NCBI RefSeq assembly: GCF_000702305.1
Contig: NZ_JNLC01000013.1
Coordinates: 124,001-188,000 of the forward strand
Direction: 5' to 3'
From: Allobosea sp. 117
GTDB taxonomy: Bacteria > Pseudomonadota > Alphaproteobacteria > Rhizobiales > Xanthobacteraceae
DNA length: 64,000 nt
Shown: positions 2,201-24,202 of the stretch, piece after piece
Numbering within the stretch: the first letter of the stretch is position 1
Layout: each line of letters starts with the position of its first letter
The notes under the pieces: generated by a model
Database searches by the model: none
The model's input: only the letters and a program-made list of their open reading frames with translations
Told to the model about the DNA's origin: nothing
Position numbers and translations under genes: made by a program

Positions 2201-3238
2201 ATGAACACCTCCCGCCTCATCACCCCCGAGCGCCGCGACGAGGACGGCGCGGAGGCGTCGCTGCGGCCGCAGACGCTTTCCGAATTCATCGGGCAGGAGC
2301 AGGCGCGGGCCAATCTCGGCGTCTTCATCAGGGCCGCCAAGACCCGCGGCGAGGCGCTCGACCATGTGCTGTTCGTCGGCCCGCCCGGCCTCGGCAAGAC
2401 CACTCTGGCGCAGATCGTGGCGCGCGAGCTCGGCGTCGGCTTCCGCGCCACCTCCGGGCCGGTGATCGCCAAGGCCGGCGACCTCGCGGCGCTGCTGACC
2501 AATCTCGAAGAACGCGACGTGCTGTTCATCGACGAGATCCATCGGCTCAACCCGGCGGTGGAGGAGATCCTCTATCCGGCGATGGAGGATTACGAGCTCG
2601 ACCTGATCATCGGCGAGGGGCCGGCGGCGCGTTCGGTGAAGATCCAGCTCTCGAAATTCACGCTGGTCGGAGCCACCACCCGCTCGGGCCTGCTCACCAC
2701 GCCGCTGCGCGACCGCTTCGGCATCCCGGTGCGGCTCAATTTCTACACGGTGGACGAGCTGGAACTGGTGGTGACGCGCGGGGCGCGGGTGCTCGGCATC
2801 CCGATCTCGAAGGACGGCGCGCGCGAGATCGCCCGTCGGGCGCGTGGCACGCCGCGCATCGCCGGCCGGCTGCTGCGCCGGGTGCGCGACTTCGCGCTGG
2901 TGGCGGGCGCGACCACCATCGACCGGGCGGCGGCCGACCGCGCGCTCGGGGCGCTGGAGGTGGACGAGGCCGGGCTCGACCAGATGGACCGGCGCTACCT
3001 CACCGTCATCGCGGTGAATTACGGCGGCGGGCCGGTCGGGGTGGAGACCATCGCGGCGGCGCTCTCCGAGCCGCGCGACGCCATCGAGGAGATCATCGAG
3101 CCCTATCTGGTGCAGCAGGGGCTGGTGCAGCGCACCCCGCGCGGGCGCATGCTCACGCCGCACGCCTTCAAGCATCTCGGCCTCGCCGTGCCGTCCTCGA
3201 CGACGCAGATGCCGCTGTTCGACGAAGGCGGGAAGTGA
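2201..3238 (+). CDS. ruvB: Holliday junction branch migration helicase RuvB
   Basis: RuvB is the AAA+ hexameric motor that drives branch migration with RuvA. At 345 aa it is full length. Walker A GPPGLGKT lies at residues 60-67, Walker B DEIH at 111-114 and sensor 1 in GATTRSG. The C-terminal winged helix contains the family sequence [10 protein letters not shown] strong AAGGAGG ribosome site lies 4 nt before the ATG. It is the last gene of the ruv group; a repeat-rich spacer follows. Confidence 0.97.
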
Positions 3239-3262
3239 GCCGGGCTGCGGGAGGCCGCCTGC

Positions 3263-3381
3263 GTCCTTCGAGGCTCGACCTGCGGTCGAGCGCCTCAGGA
3301 TGACGACGCTTGGGAGAAAATCCTGCACGAGACCCGTCATGCTGAGGTGCCGGCCGACAGGCCGGCCTCGAAGCACGCAGG
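3263..3381. repeat. Inverted pair of dispersed palindromic repeat (family A)
   Basis: Two copies of a repeat occurring elsewhere in this window lie head to head: 3263-3306 (ending CCTCAGGATGACG) and 3335-3381 (starting CGTCATGCTGAGGTGC and ending in GCCTCGAAGCACGC). Each copy has a small internal hairpin of variable sequence. Other copies are near 7725, 19867, 28489 and 32482. Repeats of this type are common between genes in Hyphomicrobiales (from memory). Confidence 0.75.
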
Positions 3382-3451
3382 CCTCTGCCGCGACGGTGCC
3401 CCTCCGCAATCGCATCGACGCCGCGCCCGGCGTGATGTAAGTGCTTTTCAC

Positions 3452-4096
3452 ATGAGCTGGTCCAAAAGCGGCGACAAGGGCGGAGAATCGCGTGGCTACC
3501 ATCACGGTAACCTGCGGGAAGCCCTGATGCAGGCGGCGCTCGACCTGATCGCCGAGCGCGGGCCCGCCGGGGCCACCTTCGCCGAGGCGGCGCGGCGCGC
3601 GGGGGTGAGCCCGGCCGCGCCCTACCGGCATTTCCGCGACCGCGAGGAACTGCTGGCCGCGGTGGCGGCGGCCGGTTTCGACCGTTTCGCCGAGGCGCTG
3701 AAGGCCGGCTGGAACGGCGGGCGGCCCGACGCCGCGAGCGCCTATGAGCGCATGGGCCACGCCTATCTCGACTTCGCCCGCCAGCATCCGGCGGACTATG
3801 TCGCCATGTTCGAATCCGGCATTCCGACCGAGGCCGACCCGGCGCTGCGGCAGGCCGCCGACCGGGCCTTCGGCGTGCTGCGCGAGGCGGCCGAGACGCT
3901 GGTGGCGGCGATGCCGGCACAGGGTCGCCCGCCGGCGCTGATGGTGGCCCTGCACACCTGGGCGCTGGCGCATGGCGTCGCCGCGCTGTTCGGGCGGGCG
4001 GACGCGGCGCGCCGCAAGGTGCCGATGCCGGCGGACGATCTCCTTGAGGCCGCATTCCTCATCTATCTGAAAGGCCTCGGCGCCCCCGCAGCCTGA
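3452..4096 (+). CDS. TetR/AcrR-family transcriptional regulator with WHG-type C-terminal domain
   Basis: This is a 214-aa one-domain repressor. The N-terminal HTH reads from YHHGNLREALMQAAL through [21 protein letters not shown] (about residues 16-65). The C-terminal ligand domain has the LHTWALAHGVAALF segment of the WHG subfamily. ATG 3452 gives the usual short leader before the HTH. The next gene, a DUF2852 protein, has a promoter with a palindrome over its start site, a plausible target. The ligand is unknown. Confidence 0.85.
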   Translation: MSWSKSGDKGGESRGYHHGNLREALMQAALDLIAERGPAGATFAEAARRAGVSPAAPYRHFRDREELLAAVAAAGFDRFAEALKAGWNGGRPDAASAYERMGHAYLDFARQHPADYVAMFESGIPTEADPALRQAADRAFGVLREAAETLVAAMPAQGRPPALMVALHTWALAHGVAALFGRADAARRKVPMPADDLLEAAFLIYLKGLGAPAA

Positions 4097-14798: not shown

Positions 14799-16715
<1,917 letters not shown>

Positions 16716-16736
16716 GGCCCCCCTCACCGTGACGAG

Positions 16737-16766
16737 ACGCCCGCCGCAAGGCGGGCGTTTTCGTTT
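16737..16766 (+). terminator. Rho-independent terminator of ftsH
   Basis: The stem ACGCCCGCC (16737-16745) pairs with GGCGGGCGT (16750-16758) over a GCAA tetraloop and is followed by TTTCGTTT. It is strong and canonical. Confidence 0.88.
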
Positions 16767-16782
16767 GGGGGGCTTGCATTCC

Positions 16783-16873
16783 GTCATCCCGGACGGCCGC
16801 AGGCCGATCCGGGATCGCGTGCCGAACCGGAGAGCGATCCCGGCTCTCCGGCTTCGCCTCCGGCCGGGATGAC
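16783..16873. repeat. Family B palindromic repeat (variant)
   Basis: GTCATCCCGG (16783-16792) and CCGGGATGAC (16864-16873) are the outer arms of a 91-bp palindromic block with further small hairpins inside (GGACGGCCGC..., GATCCCGG...). It lies between the convergent ftsH and ROK genes. Confidence 0.6.
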
Positions 16874-16891
16874 GGCGGATGATGGGCGGAC

Positions 16892-18034
16892 TTAGCCCTT
16901 CGCCCTCTCCTTGCGCTCCTCGCCCTTCTTCCCGTCGTCCTTCTTCGCGTCGTCCTTACCGCGCTCCTTCGGCCGCTCGCGATTGGTGAAGCGCGCATTG
17001 CCGAGGCCGGTGCCGATGGTCAGCACGCCCCAGCGCTCGACATCCTGCATGAAGGGCACCTCGCTGAGGCCCTGCACCACGGCGTCGTTGTGCATCAGCG
17101 CCAGCGTCTCCTCGTCGCCGATGGCCGGGATCGCCTCGCGCAGCGCCTCGGGCAGGTTGAAGCGGCGGCTCTCCCAGTTGCCCGGCAGGTTCTGCGCGCC
17201 GGCCTCGATGGTGCCTTCGGGGGTGATGAAGCCGGGGCAGCCGATGCCGATGAAGGGGGCGAGGCGCAGCTCGCGCTTGCGGGCGTAGCCGACCAGCTCC
17301 TTGAGCATCTCGACGAGCCGCGCGACCGCGGCGTCGCGATCGAGCTTCTCCTCGTCGGCATGGCGCCAGACCTCGCTGGCCTTCACCGCCGCGCTGGAGA
17401 GGTCCGGGTTCTTCTTGAGGTTCAGCTCGACGAGGCCGGCGCGGATGTTGCTGCCGCCGATGTCGACGCCGAGGATGCTGTCGTGGCCCTTGAACATCCA
17501 GCTCGGCGCCAGATGGATGGTGCCGACGATGCCGGCCTCGTCCGGATCGTGGCGGATCGGGCGCAGCTCGACCGGGTTGTCCGCCTCGCGCAGCAGCAGC
17601 TCGGTGCGGGCGACGGCGATCTCGGCGAAGCGGGAGGCGCGCAAGCCCCCGCCGATGGCGATGCGCTCCGTGTCCTTCCATTCCTTGGTGCGCAGCAGCC
17701 GGCGGATGACGGCGGCCAGCGCCTGCGCATAGTCCTCCGTCGCGCTCATCACCAGAGCCTGCCCGGCCGGCGAGCCGTTCTTGAGCGTGCGGTCGATCTC
17801 CTTCTTGGAGATCTCCGCCGTCTCCTGCTCCCCGAACGGGTCCTCGCCCGCCTCGGCCATCACGTCGCGCCAGGCCTCGAAGGCGGTGAAGAAGGCCGAG
17901 CGCTTCGCCTTGTCGCCGACGAAGCCGTCCTCGTCGCGCAGCTCGCTGTTGTAGCCGTCGACGCTCACCGCCGGCAGGCGGGCGGCGCCGTGCCCGGCGA
18001 TGGCGGGAGCGGTGGGGCGGGTCTTCGTCGTCAT
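16892..18034 (-). CDS. ROK-family sugar kinase-like protein with permuted domain order
   Basis: This 380-aa protein has ROK-family motifs in an unusual order. The nucleotide-binding start GVDIGGSNIRAGLVELNL is at residues 189-206, not at the N-terminus. IGIGCPGFI, AQNLPGNWE, MHNDAV and finally LTIGTGLGNARF follow. The elements normally C-terminal in ROK proteins come first: a helix YAQALAAVIRRLL, then RIAIGGGLRASRF (about 125-136) and DEAGIVGTIHL (about 165-175). The last ~30 residues are a Lys/Glu/Asp-rich tail. A GGGGGAG site precedes ATG 18034. It lies between ftsH and glmM, so a sugar substrate is likely but cannot be named. Confidence 0.8.
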   Translation of the reverse strand: MTTKTRPTAPAIAGHGAARLPAVSVDGYNSELRDEDGFVGDKAKRSAFFTAFEAWRDVMAEAGEDPFGEQETAEISKKEIDRTLKNGSPAGQALVMSATEDYAQALAAVIRRLLRTKEWKDTERIAIGGGLRASRFAEIAVARTELLLREADNPVELRPIRHDPDEAGIVGTIHLAPSWMFKGHDSILGVDIGGSNIRAGLVELNLKKNPDLSSAAVKASEVWRHADEEKLDRDAAVARLVEMLKELVGYARKRELRLAPFIGIGCPGFITPEGTIEAGAQNLPGNWESRRFNLPEALREAIPAIGDEETLALMHNDAVVQGLSEVPFMQDVERWGVLTIGTGLGNARFTNRERPKERGKDDAKKDDGKKGEERKERAKG

Positions 18035-18117
18035 GGGTTCTCCCCCGGCGGTATCGGAGGAGACAACGGGCGGGAGCGGCGATTGTTTCCCCCGCCATGC
18101 GGCGCCGTCGCGGAAAA

Positions 18118-18178
18118 GGCTCCAACTTATGGAGATGGAGCCCTTTCCGAACGGGTGATTCCACCTGATCGGAAAGGG
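18118..18178. repeat. Two hairpins upstream of glmM
   Basis: GGCTCC (18118-18123) pairs with GGAGCC (18137-18142). Overlapping it, CCCTTTCCGA (18141-18150) and TCGGAAAGGG (18169-18178) form a perfect 10-bp inverted repeat with an 18-nt loop. The loop sequence (GGGTGATTCCACCTGA) resembles a dispersed element seen in Hyphomicrobiales genomes, from memory. The rest of 18035-18324 should hold the divergent promoters. Confidence 0.5.
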
Positions 18179-18324
18179 CCCTAAAAGCGGGGGATTAACC
18201 CTCGCCGCCGACAGTTCGAATTTTCGCCAAATGTGCTGGTAATGTACGTTCACGATATGTGAACACTCCCATGCACGGGATGCGCGTAGAACATGCGCGG
18301 TATTCGACCGAATCGGACCTGGAC

Positions 18325-19668
<1,344 letters not shown>

Positions 19669-21058: not shown

Positions 21059-22252
<1,194 letters not shown>

Positions 22253-22255
22253 GGC

Positions 22256-23107
22256 TCACCCCTTCTTGGACCGGCGCTCGGGCCGCTTGCAGACGCGGTC
22301 GAGCACGATGGCGAGAACGACGATGGCGAGGCCCGCTTCGAAGCCCATGGCGATGTTCACCGAGTTCAGCGCCCGCACCACCGGCTTGCCGAGGCCGTCG
22401 GCGCCCACGAGGGCGGCGATCACCACCATGGAGAGGCTGAGCATGATGCACTGGGTGATGCCGGCCATGATGGTCGGCAGCGCATAGGGCAGCTCCACCT
22501 TGAACAGAAGCTGGCGCTTGGTGGCGCCGAACGCCTTGCCGGCCTCGAACAGGTTCGGCGGCACCGAGGAGATGCCGAGATGAGTGAGGCGGATCGGGGC
22601 AGGGATGGCGAAGATCACGGTGGAGATCAGCCCCGGCACCGCGCCCAGGCCGAACAGCACCAGCGTCGGGATGAGGTACACGAAGGTGGGAATCGTCTGC
22701 ATCAGGTCGAGGATCGGCCGGATGGCGGTGTAGAGCCATGGCCGGTGCGCCGCCGCGATGCCGATCGGCACGCCGATGACCACGCAGACCAGCGTCGCGC
22801 AGATGACCAGCGAGAGGGTCTCGATGGTCGCCTGCCAGTAGCCGAGATTGGTGACCAGCAGCAGCGCCGCCACGATGAAGACGACGAGCCCGATTGAGCG
22901 GTGCATGTACCAGGCGCCGAGCGCGAAGATCGCGATCAGCAGCAGCGGCGGCACCAGCAGCAGCGCGCCGGTGAGGCCGGCGATCAGCCCGCCGAGGACC
23001 AGCGAGATGAAGTCGAACACGCTCTGCCCGTGCTCGGTCAGCAGGTCGACCAGGTTCTTCAGCCAGAGCCCAAGCGGGATCTTGTGCTCGGTCAGCCAGT
23101 CATACAT
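22256..23107 (-). CDS. choW: Choline ABC transporter permease ChoW
   Basis: This 283-aa ProW-type inner-membrane permease starts MYDWLTEHKIPLGLWL. It has about six membrane segments and the coupling-loop region IPAPIRLTHLGISSVPPNLFEAG in the middle (about 175-200), which docks on the ATPase. ATG 23107 has a GGGGGAG site 6 nt upstream; the frame is open further but nothing there looks coding. It is second in the choXWV operon. Confidence 0.92.
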   Translation of the reverse strand: MYDWLTEHKIPLGLWLKNLVDLLTEHGQSVFDFISLVLGGLIAGLTGALLLVPPLLLIAIFALGAWYMHRSIGLVVFIVAALLLVTNLGYWQATIETLSLVICATLVCVVIGVPIGIAAAHRPWLYTAIRPILDLMQTIPTFVYLIPTLVLFGLGAVPGLISTVIFAIPAPIRLTHLGISSVPPNLFEAGKAFGATKRQLLFKVELPYALPTIMAGITQCIMLSLSMVVIAALVGADGLGKPVVRALNSVNIAMGFEAGLAIVVLAIVLDRVCKRPERRSKKG

Positions 23108-23196
23108 CGGGCGCTCCCCCGGACGGCGATGAAAGGGCGAAATCGAACATCGTGGCCGGACGGTCGCCCGGCCATCGGCAGGTTGCAAGGTCAGGA

Positions 23197-23219
23197 GGCC
23201 ATCCGCCGTGCGGATGGCC
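23197..23219 (-). promoter_or_regulatory. Stable hairpin between choX and choW
   Basis: GGCCATCCGC (23197-23206) and GCGGATGGCC (23210-23219) form a perfect 10-bp stem with a 3-nt loop, 11 nt after the choX stop codon on the minus strand. No T-run follows on that strand. A role in protecting choX mRNA from 3' decay, giving more binding protein than permease, is the likely purpose (inference). Confidence 0.5.
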
Positions 23220-23230
23220 GAAGTCCGCCG

Positions 23231-24202
23231 TCAGAGGCCGACGCTCTTCTTCACGGCGTCGACCGCCGGCTTGCCGTCGATGGTGGTGACGCCCTTCAGC
23301 CAGGGCTCCCACACGGTGGGGTTGGCCTTCAGCCATTTGGCGGCGGCCTTCGGGCCTTCCATGCCGTCGAACAGGATGTAGCCCATCACCACGTTCTCGG
23401 TGTCGAGCGAGAACTTCAGGTTCTTGATGAGGGCGCCGACATTCGGGCACTCGGTGACATAGCCGGCGCGGGTGTTGGTGTAGACGGTGGCGCCGCCATA
23501 GTTGGGGCCGAACACGTCGTCGCCGCCGGAGAGGTAGGACAGCTTGTACTTGGTGTTCATCGGGTGGGGCTCCCAGCCGAGGAACACGATCGGCTCCTTG
23601 CGGCGGGCGGCGCGCTCGACCTGCGCGAGCATGCCCTGCTCGGAGGATTCGACCAGCTCGAAGCCCTTGAGGCCGAACTTGTCGTCCTTGATCATGTCGA
23701 GGATCAGCCGGTTGCCGTCATTGCCCGGCTCGATGCCGTAGATCTTGTTGCCGAGCTTGTCCTTGAACTTGGCGATGTCGGCGAAGGACTTCAGGCCCTC
23801 GTCATAGAGATAGGTGGGCACGGCGAGGGTGTATTTGGCGCCTTCGAGATTGGCGCCGAGCACCTCGACCGACTTGTCCTCGCGATAGGGCTTGAGGTCG
23901 GCTTCCATGGTCGGCATCCAGTTGCCGAGGAAGACGTCGATGTCCTTGGTCTGCATTGACTTGTAGGTGACCGGCACCGACAGGACCTGCGTCTTCGGGG
24001 TGTAGCCGAGCGCTTCCAGGATCGCCGAGGCGACGGCGGTGGTGGCGGTGATGTCGGTCCAGCCGACGTCGGCGAACTTCACCGTCTTGCAGGCCGCCGG
24101 CTCGGCCGCGCTAGCGGTGGATGAGGCGGCGTCCCAGGCGAAGGGGACGATCAGGAGTGCCGCACCGAGTGCGGCGCCCGCCAGAGACTTCAAGCTGCGC
24201 AT
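23231..24202 (-). CDS. choX: Choline-binding periplasmic protein ChoX
   Basis: ChoX is the high-affinity choline receptor of the ChoXWV importer. The 323-aa protein has a Sec signal peptide (MRSLKSLAGAALGAALLIV..., cut near ASAAEP, residue 33). The OpuAC-type fold shows KFADVGWTDITATTAV, VFLGNWMPTM, and later VFLGWEPHPMNTKY. Tryptophans and tyrosines at these places form the aromatic cage for the trimethylammonium group in S. meliloti ChoX. It is first in the operon, divergent from betI, so import and oxidation can be controlled together. Confidence 0.93.
   Translation of the reverse strand: MRSLKSLAGAALGAALLIVPFAWDAASSTASAAEPAACKTVKFADVGWTDITATTAVASAILEALGYTPKTQVLSVPVTYKSMQTKDIDVFLGNWMPTMEADLKPYREDKSVEVLGANLEGAKYTLAVPTYLYDEGLKSFADIAKFKDKLGNKIYGIEPGNDGNRLILDMIKDDKFGLKGFELVESSEQGMLAQVERAARRKEPIVFLGWEPHPMNTKYKLSYLSGGDDVFGPNYGGATVYTNTRAGYVTECPNVGALIKNLKFSLDTENVVMGYILFDGMEGPKAAAKWLKANPTVWEPWLKGVTTIDGKPAVDAVKKSVGL

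Follow-up and report, generated by a model that had tools for sequence, protein, structure and literature searches.

Gene layout and motif order

The window, a 64,000-nucleotide stretch of the Allobosea sp. 117 genome (contig NZ_JNLC01000013.1, positions 124,001 to 188,000), carries a gene for a ROK-like sugar kinase between two genes that we take from their translated open reading frames (ORFs) to be ftsH and glmM; it lies on the strand opposite to both (Table 1). In the 380-residue product the motifs of the ROK family stand in rotated order: the lobe with the GGG motif comes first, DIGG follows at residue 191 and IGTGLGN is last. The ORF, its coordinates and the motif positions are as the original prediction had given them, and the circular permutation of the ROK order proposed there was upheld by the comparisons described below.

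Profiles were built from 52 non-redundant relatives and from 25 canonical ROK proteins. The latter were drawn from 35 loci by length and by the presence of D-[ILVF]-G-[GA]-[TS]-type and GxGxP[GA] motifs; since this filter selected them, the normal order seen in all 25 rows is not independent evidence. Residues 73-178 aligned to columns 201-299 of the 304-column canonical profile (P 1.4e-6), that is, to its end, and residues 188-347 aligned to columns 4-138 (P 7.3e-6), at its start. With the halves put back in ROK order, one alignment extended over columns 4-299 (E 3e-10). The hhalign scores were 48.6 for the N-terminal half, 43.7 for the C-terminal half and 77.4 for the restored order, whereas 60 column-shuffled ROK profiles for each gave at most 19.9, 32.2 and 25.4, and a reversed ROK profile gave 21.5, 15.2 and 15.3. 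The motif order in this comparison is far beyond chance. The Pfam ROK model (PF00480) matched residues 188-351 over its positions 2-141 of 294 (E 1.4e-6; 28.5 bits, cut-off 22.9), and the N-terminal half by itself gave a weak match to positions 189-292 (E 0.045). PF00480 was matched at E<=0.1 by all members of a 40-row family alignment.

At least 8000 homologues were found (8000 of 8000 scored candidates at E<=1e-3), and motif order was checked in 148 full-length proteins. The order GGG, DIGG, GTGLG held in 147, the remaining one being gapped at the last motif. Because of this order the protein, although derived from and built like ROK, is not filed here as a canonical member of that family.

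Half-wise alignment, a check named in the original prediction, came out in its favour. So did structure prediction: two AlphaFold2 models, in which a ROK fold is predicted for both lobes, agree with experimental ROK structures when each half is compared in the rotated order. The structure matches include Mlc (1z6r), human ManNAc kinase (2yhw/2yhy) and Streptomyces griseus glucokinase (3vgk). In-order matches to MreB and pantothenate kinase were also recorded and left our estimate of the permutation unmoved. The refuting case, residues 1-185 unrelated to the ROK C-terminal lobe and a complete ROK domain located elsewhere in the protein, can be dismissed for the part from about residue 73 on. 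Sequence searches of the PDB were of no use, the matches being weak and some of them to expression tags.

The DxGG[TS], ND and GGG motifs of the ROK family are present in all 148 proteins and GTGxG in 147, with one gap; the motif residues of the phosphate and catalytic sites are nearly invariant across the permuted family. Position 195 of the phosphate-1 motif is T in 123 proteins and S in 25, and position 265 of GIGCPG is G in 78, A in 65 and S in 5. The zinc motif CxCGxxGC was found in none of the 148, as against 21 of the 25 canonical rows. ExGH occurs in 24 of those 25 rows; in the permuted family the invariant His15 is followed by G in 145 of 148, in a part of the alignment that is of low confidence. 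Neither Pfam nor NCBIfam showed a model dedicated to the permuted family, and Pfam detected no DNA-binding or other extra domain in the window protein.

The new N-terminus matches the point of canonical ROK proteins just past the phosphate-2 hairpin. Residues 15-72 or so, where canonical ROKs have their ExGH and zinc motifs, are strongly diverged and give no confident alignment; from about residue 73 the chain continues as the usual helices of the ROK C-terminal lobe, and the new N-terminal segment of some 100 residues postulated in the original prediction is not borne out. The charged tail that it had also described was recovered from about residue 356, poorly conserved and with a predicted local distance difference test score (pLDDT) below 50 at residues 356-380 of the AlphaFold2 model; the conserved chain stops directly past GTGLGN. 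DEAG belongs to a DEAGIVG segment at residues 165-171. A linker of about ten residues between the old ends would be reasonable provided that ROK kinases have their two termini near each other; W179 within this linker is invariant in the 40-row alignment. The ATG start is plausible, given the GGGGGAG upstream and the onset of family-wide conservation at about residue 15.

Table 1. Coordinates of the kinase gene and its predicted features in the window (counts refer to the 148 full-length relatives)
Feature	Residues	Position	Strand	Conservation or basis
Coding sequence, putative permuted ROK-type kinase	380 aa	16892..18034	-	ORF and translation
ROK C-terminal lobe equivalent (N-terminal here)	11-183	17486..18004	-	
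ROK N-terminal lobe equivalent (C-terminal here)	184-356	16967..17485	-	
His15, candidate sugar-binding His of ExGH	15	17990..17992	-	148/148; low-confidence restored-order alignment
GGG, adenosine motif	128-130	17645..17653	-	148/148 at every position
DEAG	165-168	17531..17542	-	D 145, E 124, A 148, G 144
Linker, predicted to join old C- and N-termini	176-186	17477..17509	-	AlphaFold2 model
DIGGSN, phosphate-1 motif	191-196	17447..17464	-	D191, G193, G194, N196 148/148
GIGCPG	263-268	17231..17248	-	P267, G268 148/148; G263 147/148
QNLPGNW, probable sugar-contacting loop	281-287	17174..17194	-	148/148 except N286, 146
HND with predicted catalytic Asp317	315-317	17084..17092	-	148/148
GTGLGN, phosphate-2 motif	341-346	16997..17014	-	147/148, one gap
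Charged tail, not conserved	357-380	16895..16966	-	family alignment gapped there
GGGGGAG, probable ribosome-binding site		18040..18046	-	sequence reading
EcfG-like motif GAAAC-N16-CGTT		18065..18089	-	30 nt before ATG; one mismatch to GGAAC-N16-CGTT

Distribution and origin of the permuted family

Genome tallies were taken at E <= 1e-3 and include partial and canonical-order matches. Among genomes of relatives, 34 of 61 had a match (a fragment in G601 and two pieces in G582). Order-wide the figure was 40 of 297, two of them (G512, G515) with fragments only; class-wide it was 14 of 289, two of which (G050, G196) were canonical-order proteins; and phylum-wide it was 36 of 299. Twenty of these 36 belong to family f215, with weak matches covering the C-terminal half only. 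Seven f215 proteins were examined, all with the matching lobe towards their own N-terminus; five whose complete sequences were read proved to be ROKs of canonical order. Of the remaining 16 genomes, three lie outside Alphaproteobacteria. The permuted family spans Alphaproteobacteria and some other Pseudomonadota; the original prediction, which had placed similar proteins in other Hyphomicrobiales, was right as far as it went but drawn too narrowly. Relatives of one protein from outside the class (L223), recognised by match and not by motif order, carry the source names Pseudoxanthomonas, Luteimonas, Lysobacter and Stenotrophomonas. Among plasmids, 206 of 72,556 records matched, 111 from Rhizobium and 79 from Sinorhizobium.

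A tree of the N-lobe with 70 sequences placed all 21 permuted rows in one clade (0.985). These rows were 18 of the 52 non-redundant permuted proteins and three from outside the class; 17 of the 25 canonical proteins were represented, the others having failed the cutting rule. The rotated arrangement, common to many soil bacteria, appears to stem from a single event. Its nearest canonical relative was sought among typical ROK proteins, proteins resembling polyphosphate-dependent glucokinase (PPGK), f215-type proteins and a canonical-order family with a TDGHASKL segment, and the tree singles out none of them as sister.

Several candidates met in the searches were set aside. The G050 match, which runs over the lobe junction (117-277) and had been considered a divergent permuted protein, proved to belong to a canonical-order family. 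An 836-residue frame at L090, considered as a fused ROK, was taken to be a chance open frame, since L089 of the same genus has 360 residues. SMb20472, guessed from neighbours to be the Sinorhizobium meliloti locus tag, was rejected because in the accessible text that tag belongs to arcB2. Two genomes of the window's family (G456, G479) have two long permuted-kinase matches each. Close relatives of the alphaproteobacterial gene were also found under the title Frankia sp. RB7 (L013) and in a metagenome-assembled genome labelled Gammaproteobacteria (L037); these could be mislabelled records or foreign contigs, given that the neighbours of L013 are common to many Bradyrhizobium loci.

Upstream regions and gene neighbourhood

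Genes of stress type stand near the kinase gene in some loci (otsB; a NAGGN osmoprotectant peptidase; ferritin-like, PRC-barrel and Hsp20 genes; a sigma factor gene), and the upstream regions were scanned on that account. At other loci the neighbours do not suggest stress. In the accessible portions of the sources, EcfG is described as exclusive to Alphaproteobacteria and the Rhizobium etli motif is given as GGAAC-N16-CGTT (PMC3892343), with promoter sites some 16-50 nt before the ATG (PMC4167512). A first strict scan detected GGAAC-N16/17-CGTT in 52 of 160 upstreams. The 160 loci yielded 146 distinct sequences (last 200 nt), or 143 after removal of those from outside the class, L037 being kept in. 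Family stretches were anchored at residue 15. For the controls, all ORFs of 200 aa or more on both strands were taken, many of them not genes, and anchored at their first start codon. The strict motif is present in 43 of the 143 distinct alphaproteobacterial upstreams, as against 25 of 2107 control upstreams. With G[GAC]AAC in place of GGAAC the count rises to 107, leaving 36 upstreams without the motif; G-any-AAC was found in 59 of the 2107 controls. As this relaxation was chosen after Bradyrhizobium-type upstreams had been seen, cleaner evidence comes from the strict count and from a scan of spacings, in which 78 upstreams have G[GAC]AAC and CGTT at a spacing of 16 and 29 at 17, with no other spacing between 5 and 35 found more than twice. 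Scanned on the reverse strand, 6 of the 160 upstreams have the strict motif, and some of these cases may be promoters belonging to divergent genes; forward-strand shuffles gave fewer, with a mean of 0.3 and a maximum of 3 in 200.

At least one case was seen in 20 of 28 groups. Bradyrhizobium and its kin had the motif in 41 of 56 upstreams, none of them strict. It was found in no upstream of f2, f16, f58, f123, f160, f193, Hyphomicrobium or L037, and some motif-negative groups have GGAAC with AGTT, GGTT or CGCT at the right spacing. Outside the class it was found at none of five loci (three genomes, two of them present twice). The relaxed pattern has three matches on both strands of the 64-kb window, the copy upstream of the kinase gene being one, and elsewhere in the same genome a PhyR-type ORF has GGAAC-N17-CGTT 16 nt before its start. 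From the conserved promoter pattern we infer that EcfG (RpoE2), the sigma factor of the general stress response, drives transcription of the gene in most alphaproteobacterial carriers.

The intergenic region upstream of the gene (18035-18260) folds strongly as RNA (z -4.6) and contains, upstream of the predicted promoter and between the divergent genes, an inverted repeat GCCCTTTCCGAACGGGTG / CACCTGATCGGAAAGGGC at 18140-18179; Rfam gave no match at the gathering threshold in 16000-19000. Another inverted repeat, CCGTCATCCCGGACGG ... CCGGCCGGGATGACGG at 16781-16875, lies just past the 3' end of the gene and is possibly a dispersed repeat. Further along the window (21059-24202, minus strand) are ORFs that we take from their translations to resemble the ABC ATPase, permease and substrate-binding protein of a glycine-betaine (proVWX) type system. 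In Ancylobacter radicis (L002, 7274-7831) the divergent neighbour of the permuted kinase gene encodes a sigma-70 region 2/4 protein that matches PhyR_sigma2 and may be a further EcfG-type sigma factor; L007 has a neighbour that resembles it by position and sharing. On plasmid p195_2 of Bradyrhizobium sp. 195 (L231), typed as conjugative, the kinase gene stands among ferritin-like, PRC-barrel, SDR and Hsp20 genes, a stretch looking like a mobile stress-tolerance block.

Predicted function and alternative explanations

The rotated order, the half-by-half homology and model folds, the single clade and the near-invariant motifs make it probable, as far as computation from sequence can tell, that the gene encodes a ROK-type sugar kinase with swapped lobes, a circular permutation; our preferred interpretation, which also draws on the promoter pattern, is an ATP-dependent hexose kinase expressed in the general stress response. 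The chain begins beyond the point where a normal ROK kinase has its phosphate-2 beta-hairpin. The large C-terminal lobe, with the GGG adenosine motif and DEAG, comes first, and a short linker leads on into the small N-terminal lobe (DIGGSN phosphate-1 motif, Asp317 in HND), the end falling just past the phosphate-2 GTGLGN. The two lobes would close on ATP-Mg and hexose like those of ordinary ROK kinases, with Asp317 as the presumed catalytic base and with His15 and the NLPGNW loop probably holding the sugar, for which glucose or a closely related sugar is the likeliest choice; the roles of Asp317, His15 and QNLPGNW are those that we assume from ROK kinases and hexokinases. Given EcfG-driven transcription, the enzyme would probably be a source of hexose 6-phosphate in stressed or starving cells, serving, for instance, trehalose synthesis or the reuse of trehalose-derived glucose. 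More tentatively, one ancient lobe swap may have founded a separate ROK lineage with a dedicated general-stress enzyme, in which the new termini and the rebuilt His15 segment would alter the sugar site or its regulation and glucose would be fed to trehalose-linked metabolism; we hold this fuller account to be possible rather than probable. Two findings weigh against the kinase interpretation: the window genome has a separate glucokinase (PF02685), and no gene partner is constant across relatives. A role as sole glucokinase of the genome was rejected in view of the PF02685 protein, as was a link to amino-sugar metabolism read from ftsH and glmM by operon logic, because the neighbours vary from genus to genus.

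A permuted ROK protein might also act without phosphorylating sugar, as a stress-induced sensor or regulator whose two-lobe clamp would bind ATP or sugar like the ROK repressors. The absence of the zinc motif would fit this, as would the divergence of the ExGH-zinc segment, stronger than in any other part; regulators exist among ROK proteins, and Mlc is one of the structure matches. Regulators, however, need not keep the ROK catalytic motifs, whereas here the phosphate and catalytic motifs hardly vary (HND in 148 of 148) and Pfam shows no DNA-binding or added domain, and we consider a sensor unlikely. The donor might instead be polyphosphate, not ATP, which would suit starvation and stress. 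Indeed the top NCBIfam match is to polyphosphate--glucose phosphotransferase (NF045942, E 9.5e-6), but its 25.5 bits are far under the equivalog cut-off of 250. The C-terminal half scores better with three PPGK-like alphaproteobacterial proteins (4e-13) than with the 25 typical ROKs (7e-6), although the former profile is built on three sequences and a canonical-order family without PPGK annotation scores better still (8.8e-18). NDADVQGL, found in two of the three, resembles HNDAVVQGL of the window protein, yet in the tree the PPGK-like proteins fall with canonical ROKs, with weak support (0.702). A permuted polyphosphate-dependent glucokinase therefore seems to us quite unlikely.

As to the history of the circularly permuted kinase, two ROK-type lobes could have been fused in the other order instead of being permuted via duplication and truncation. 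Since the break falls close to the boundary between the lobes, either history yields the same product, and we know of no intermediate, tandem ROK-ROK and free half-lobe genes not having been searched for. The restored order forms one continuous ROK alignment, though both histories predict that; permutation is the more parsimonious, and a fusion is in our judgement improbable. That the order is an artefact of chance motifs, a frameshift or mis-assembly is refuted by the profile controls and by the full-length relatives, which come from many separate genomes and show the order in 147 of 148 cases; the likelihood of an artefact is practically nil.

The permuted kinase carries the generic label 'ROK family protein', and the Pfam model matches half of it only. 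The original prediction knew of no published description of the permutation, and none of it or of the gene was found in the accessible text of the open-access literature, PMC1079889 and PMC2213659 included, most subscription papers lying outside that scope. The main text of PMC6180224, PMC3616915, PMC3188799 and PMC8877191, as far as available, has nothing on a permuted kinase gene, and the literature pairing the EcfG general stress response with ROK yielded, in its accessible parts, an unrelated ROK regulator only, plus a reference. The gene is probably a member of the stress regulon in well-studied rhizobia (S. meliloti, Rhizobium, Bradyrhizobium), in which knock-outs are readily made, and a recurrent unstudied gene gains a testable function. 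To our knowledge, few natural circular permutations shift a whole kinase active site and persist in many species; this one offers a natural experiment on whether lobe closure in ASKHA kinases depends on chain connectivity.

With ROK kinases (PF00480; 2yhw/2yhy, 3vgk) the window protein shares both lobes, the phosphate-1, phosphate-2, adenosine and catalytic-Asp motifs and, half by half, the fold; it differs in its rotated lobes, the lack of CxCGxxGC and its new termini past the phosphate-2 hairpin. Polyphosphate/ATP glucomannokinase and PPGK (1woq, NF045942) provide the top named NCBIfam match and a similar NDA-VQGL segment, and by eye the three PPGK-like proteins also lack the zinc motif; the differences are the permuted order of the window protein and its score far under the family cut-off. 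The tandem hexokinases I/II of rat and human show the same lobe order where the C-lobe of their first repeat meets the N-lobe of the second, but within two complete normal-order domains of distant sequence. ADP-dependent glucokinase and 2-dehydro-3-deoxygluconokinase, according to the accessible part of PMC2213659, are likewise a sugar-kinase pair with exchanged segments, although other kinases are concerned and the rearrangement is smaller (a helix versus a helix and strand).

In the TDGHASKL canonical-order ROK-like family (L226, P0121-P0160) the N-lobe aligns with the C-terminal half of the window protein (E 8.8e-18) and the DGHASKL segment resembles GHGAARL; the lobe order is normal, however, only 42 C-lobe columns align to the N-terminal half, and the family stands apart from the permuted clade in the tree. 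TDGHxS is invariant or nearly so in 23 aligned rows of this family, and of the 40 members listed, 35 are without a Pfam domain. On the L226 contig a second, shorter ORF of this kind (1709-2419) adjoins the first (2760-3914).
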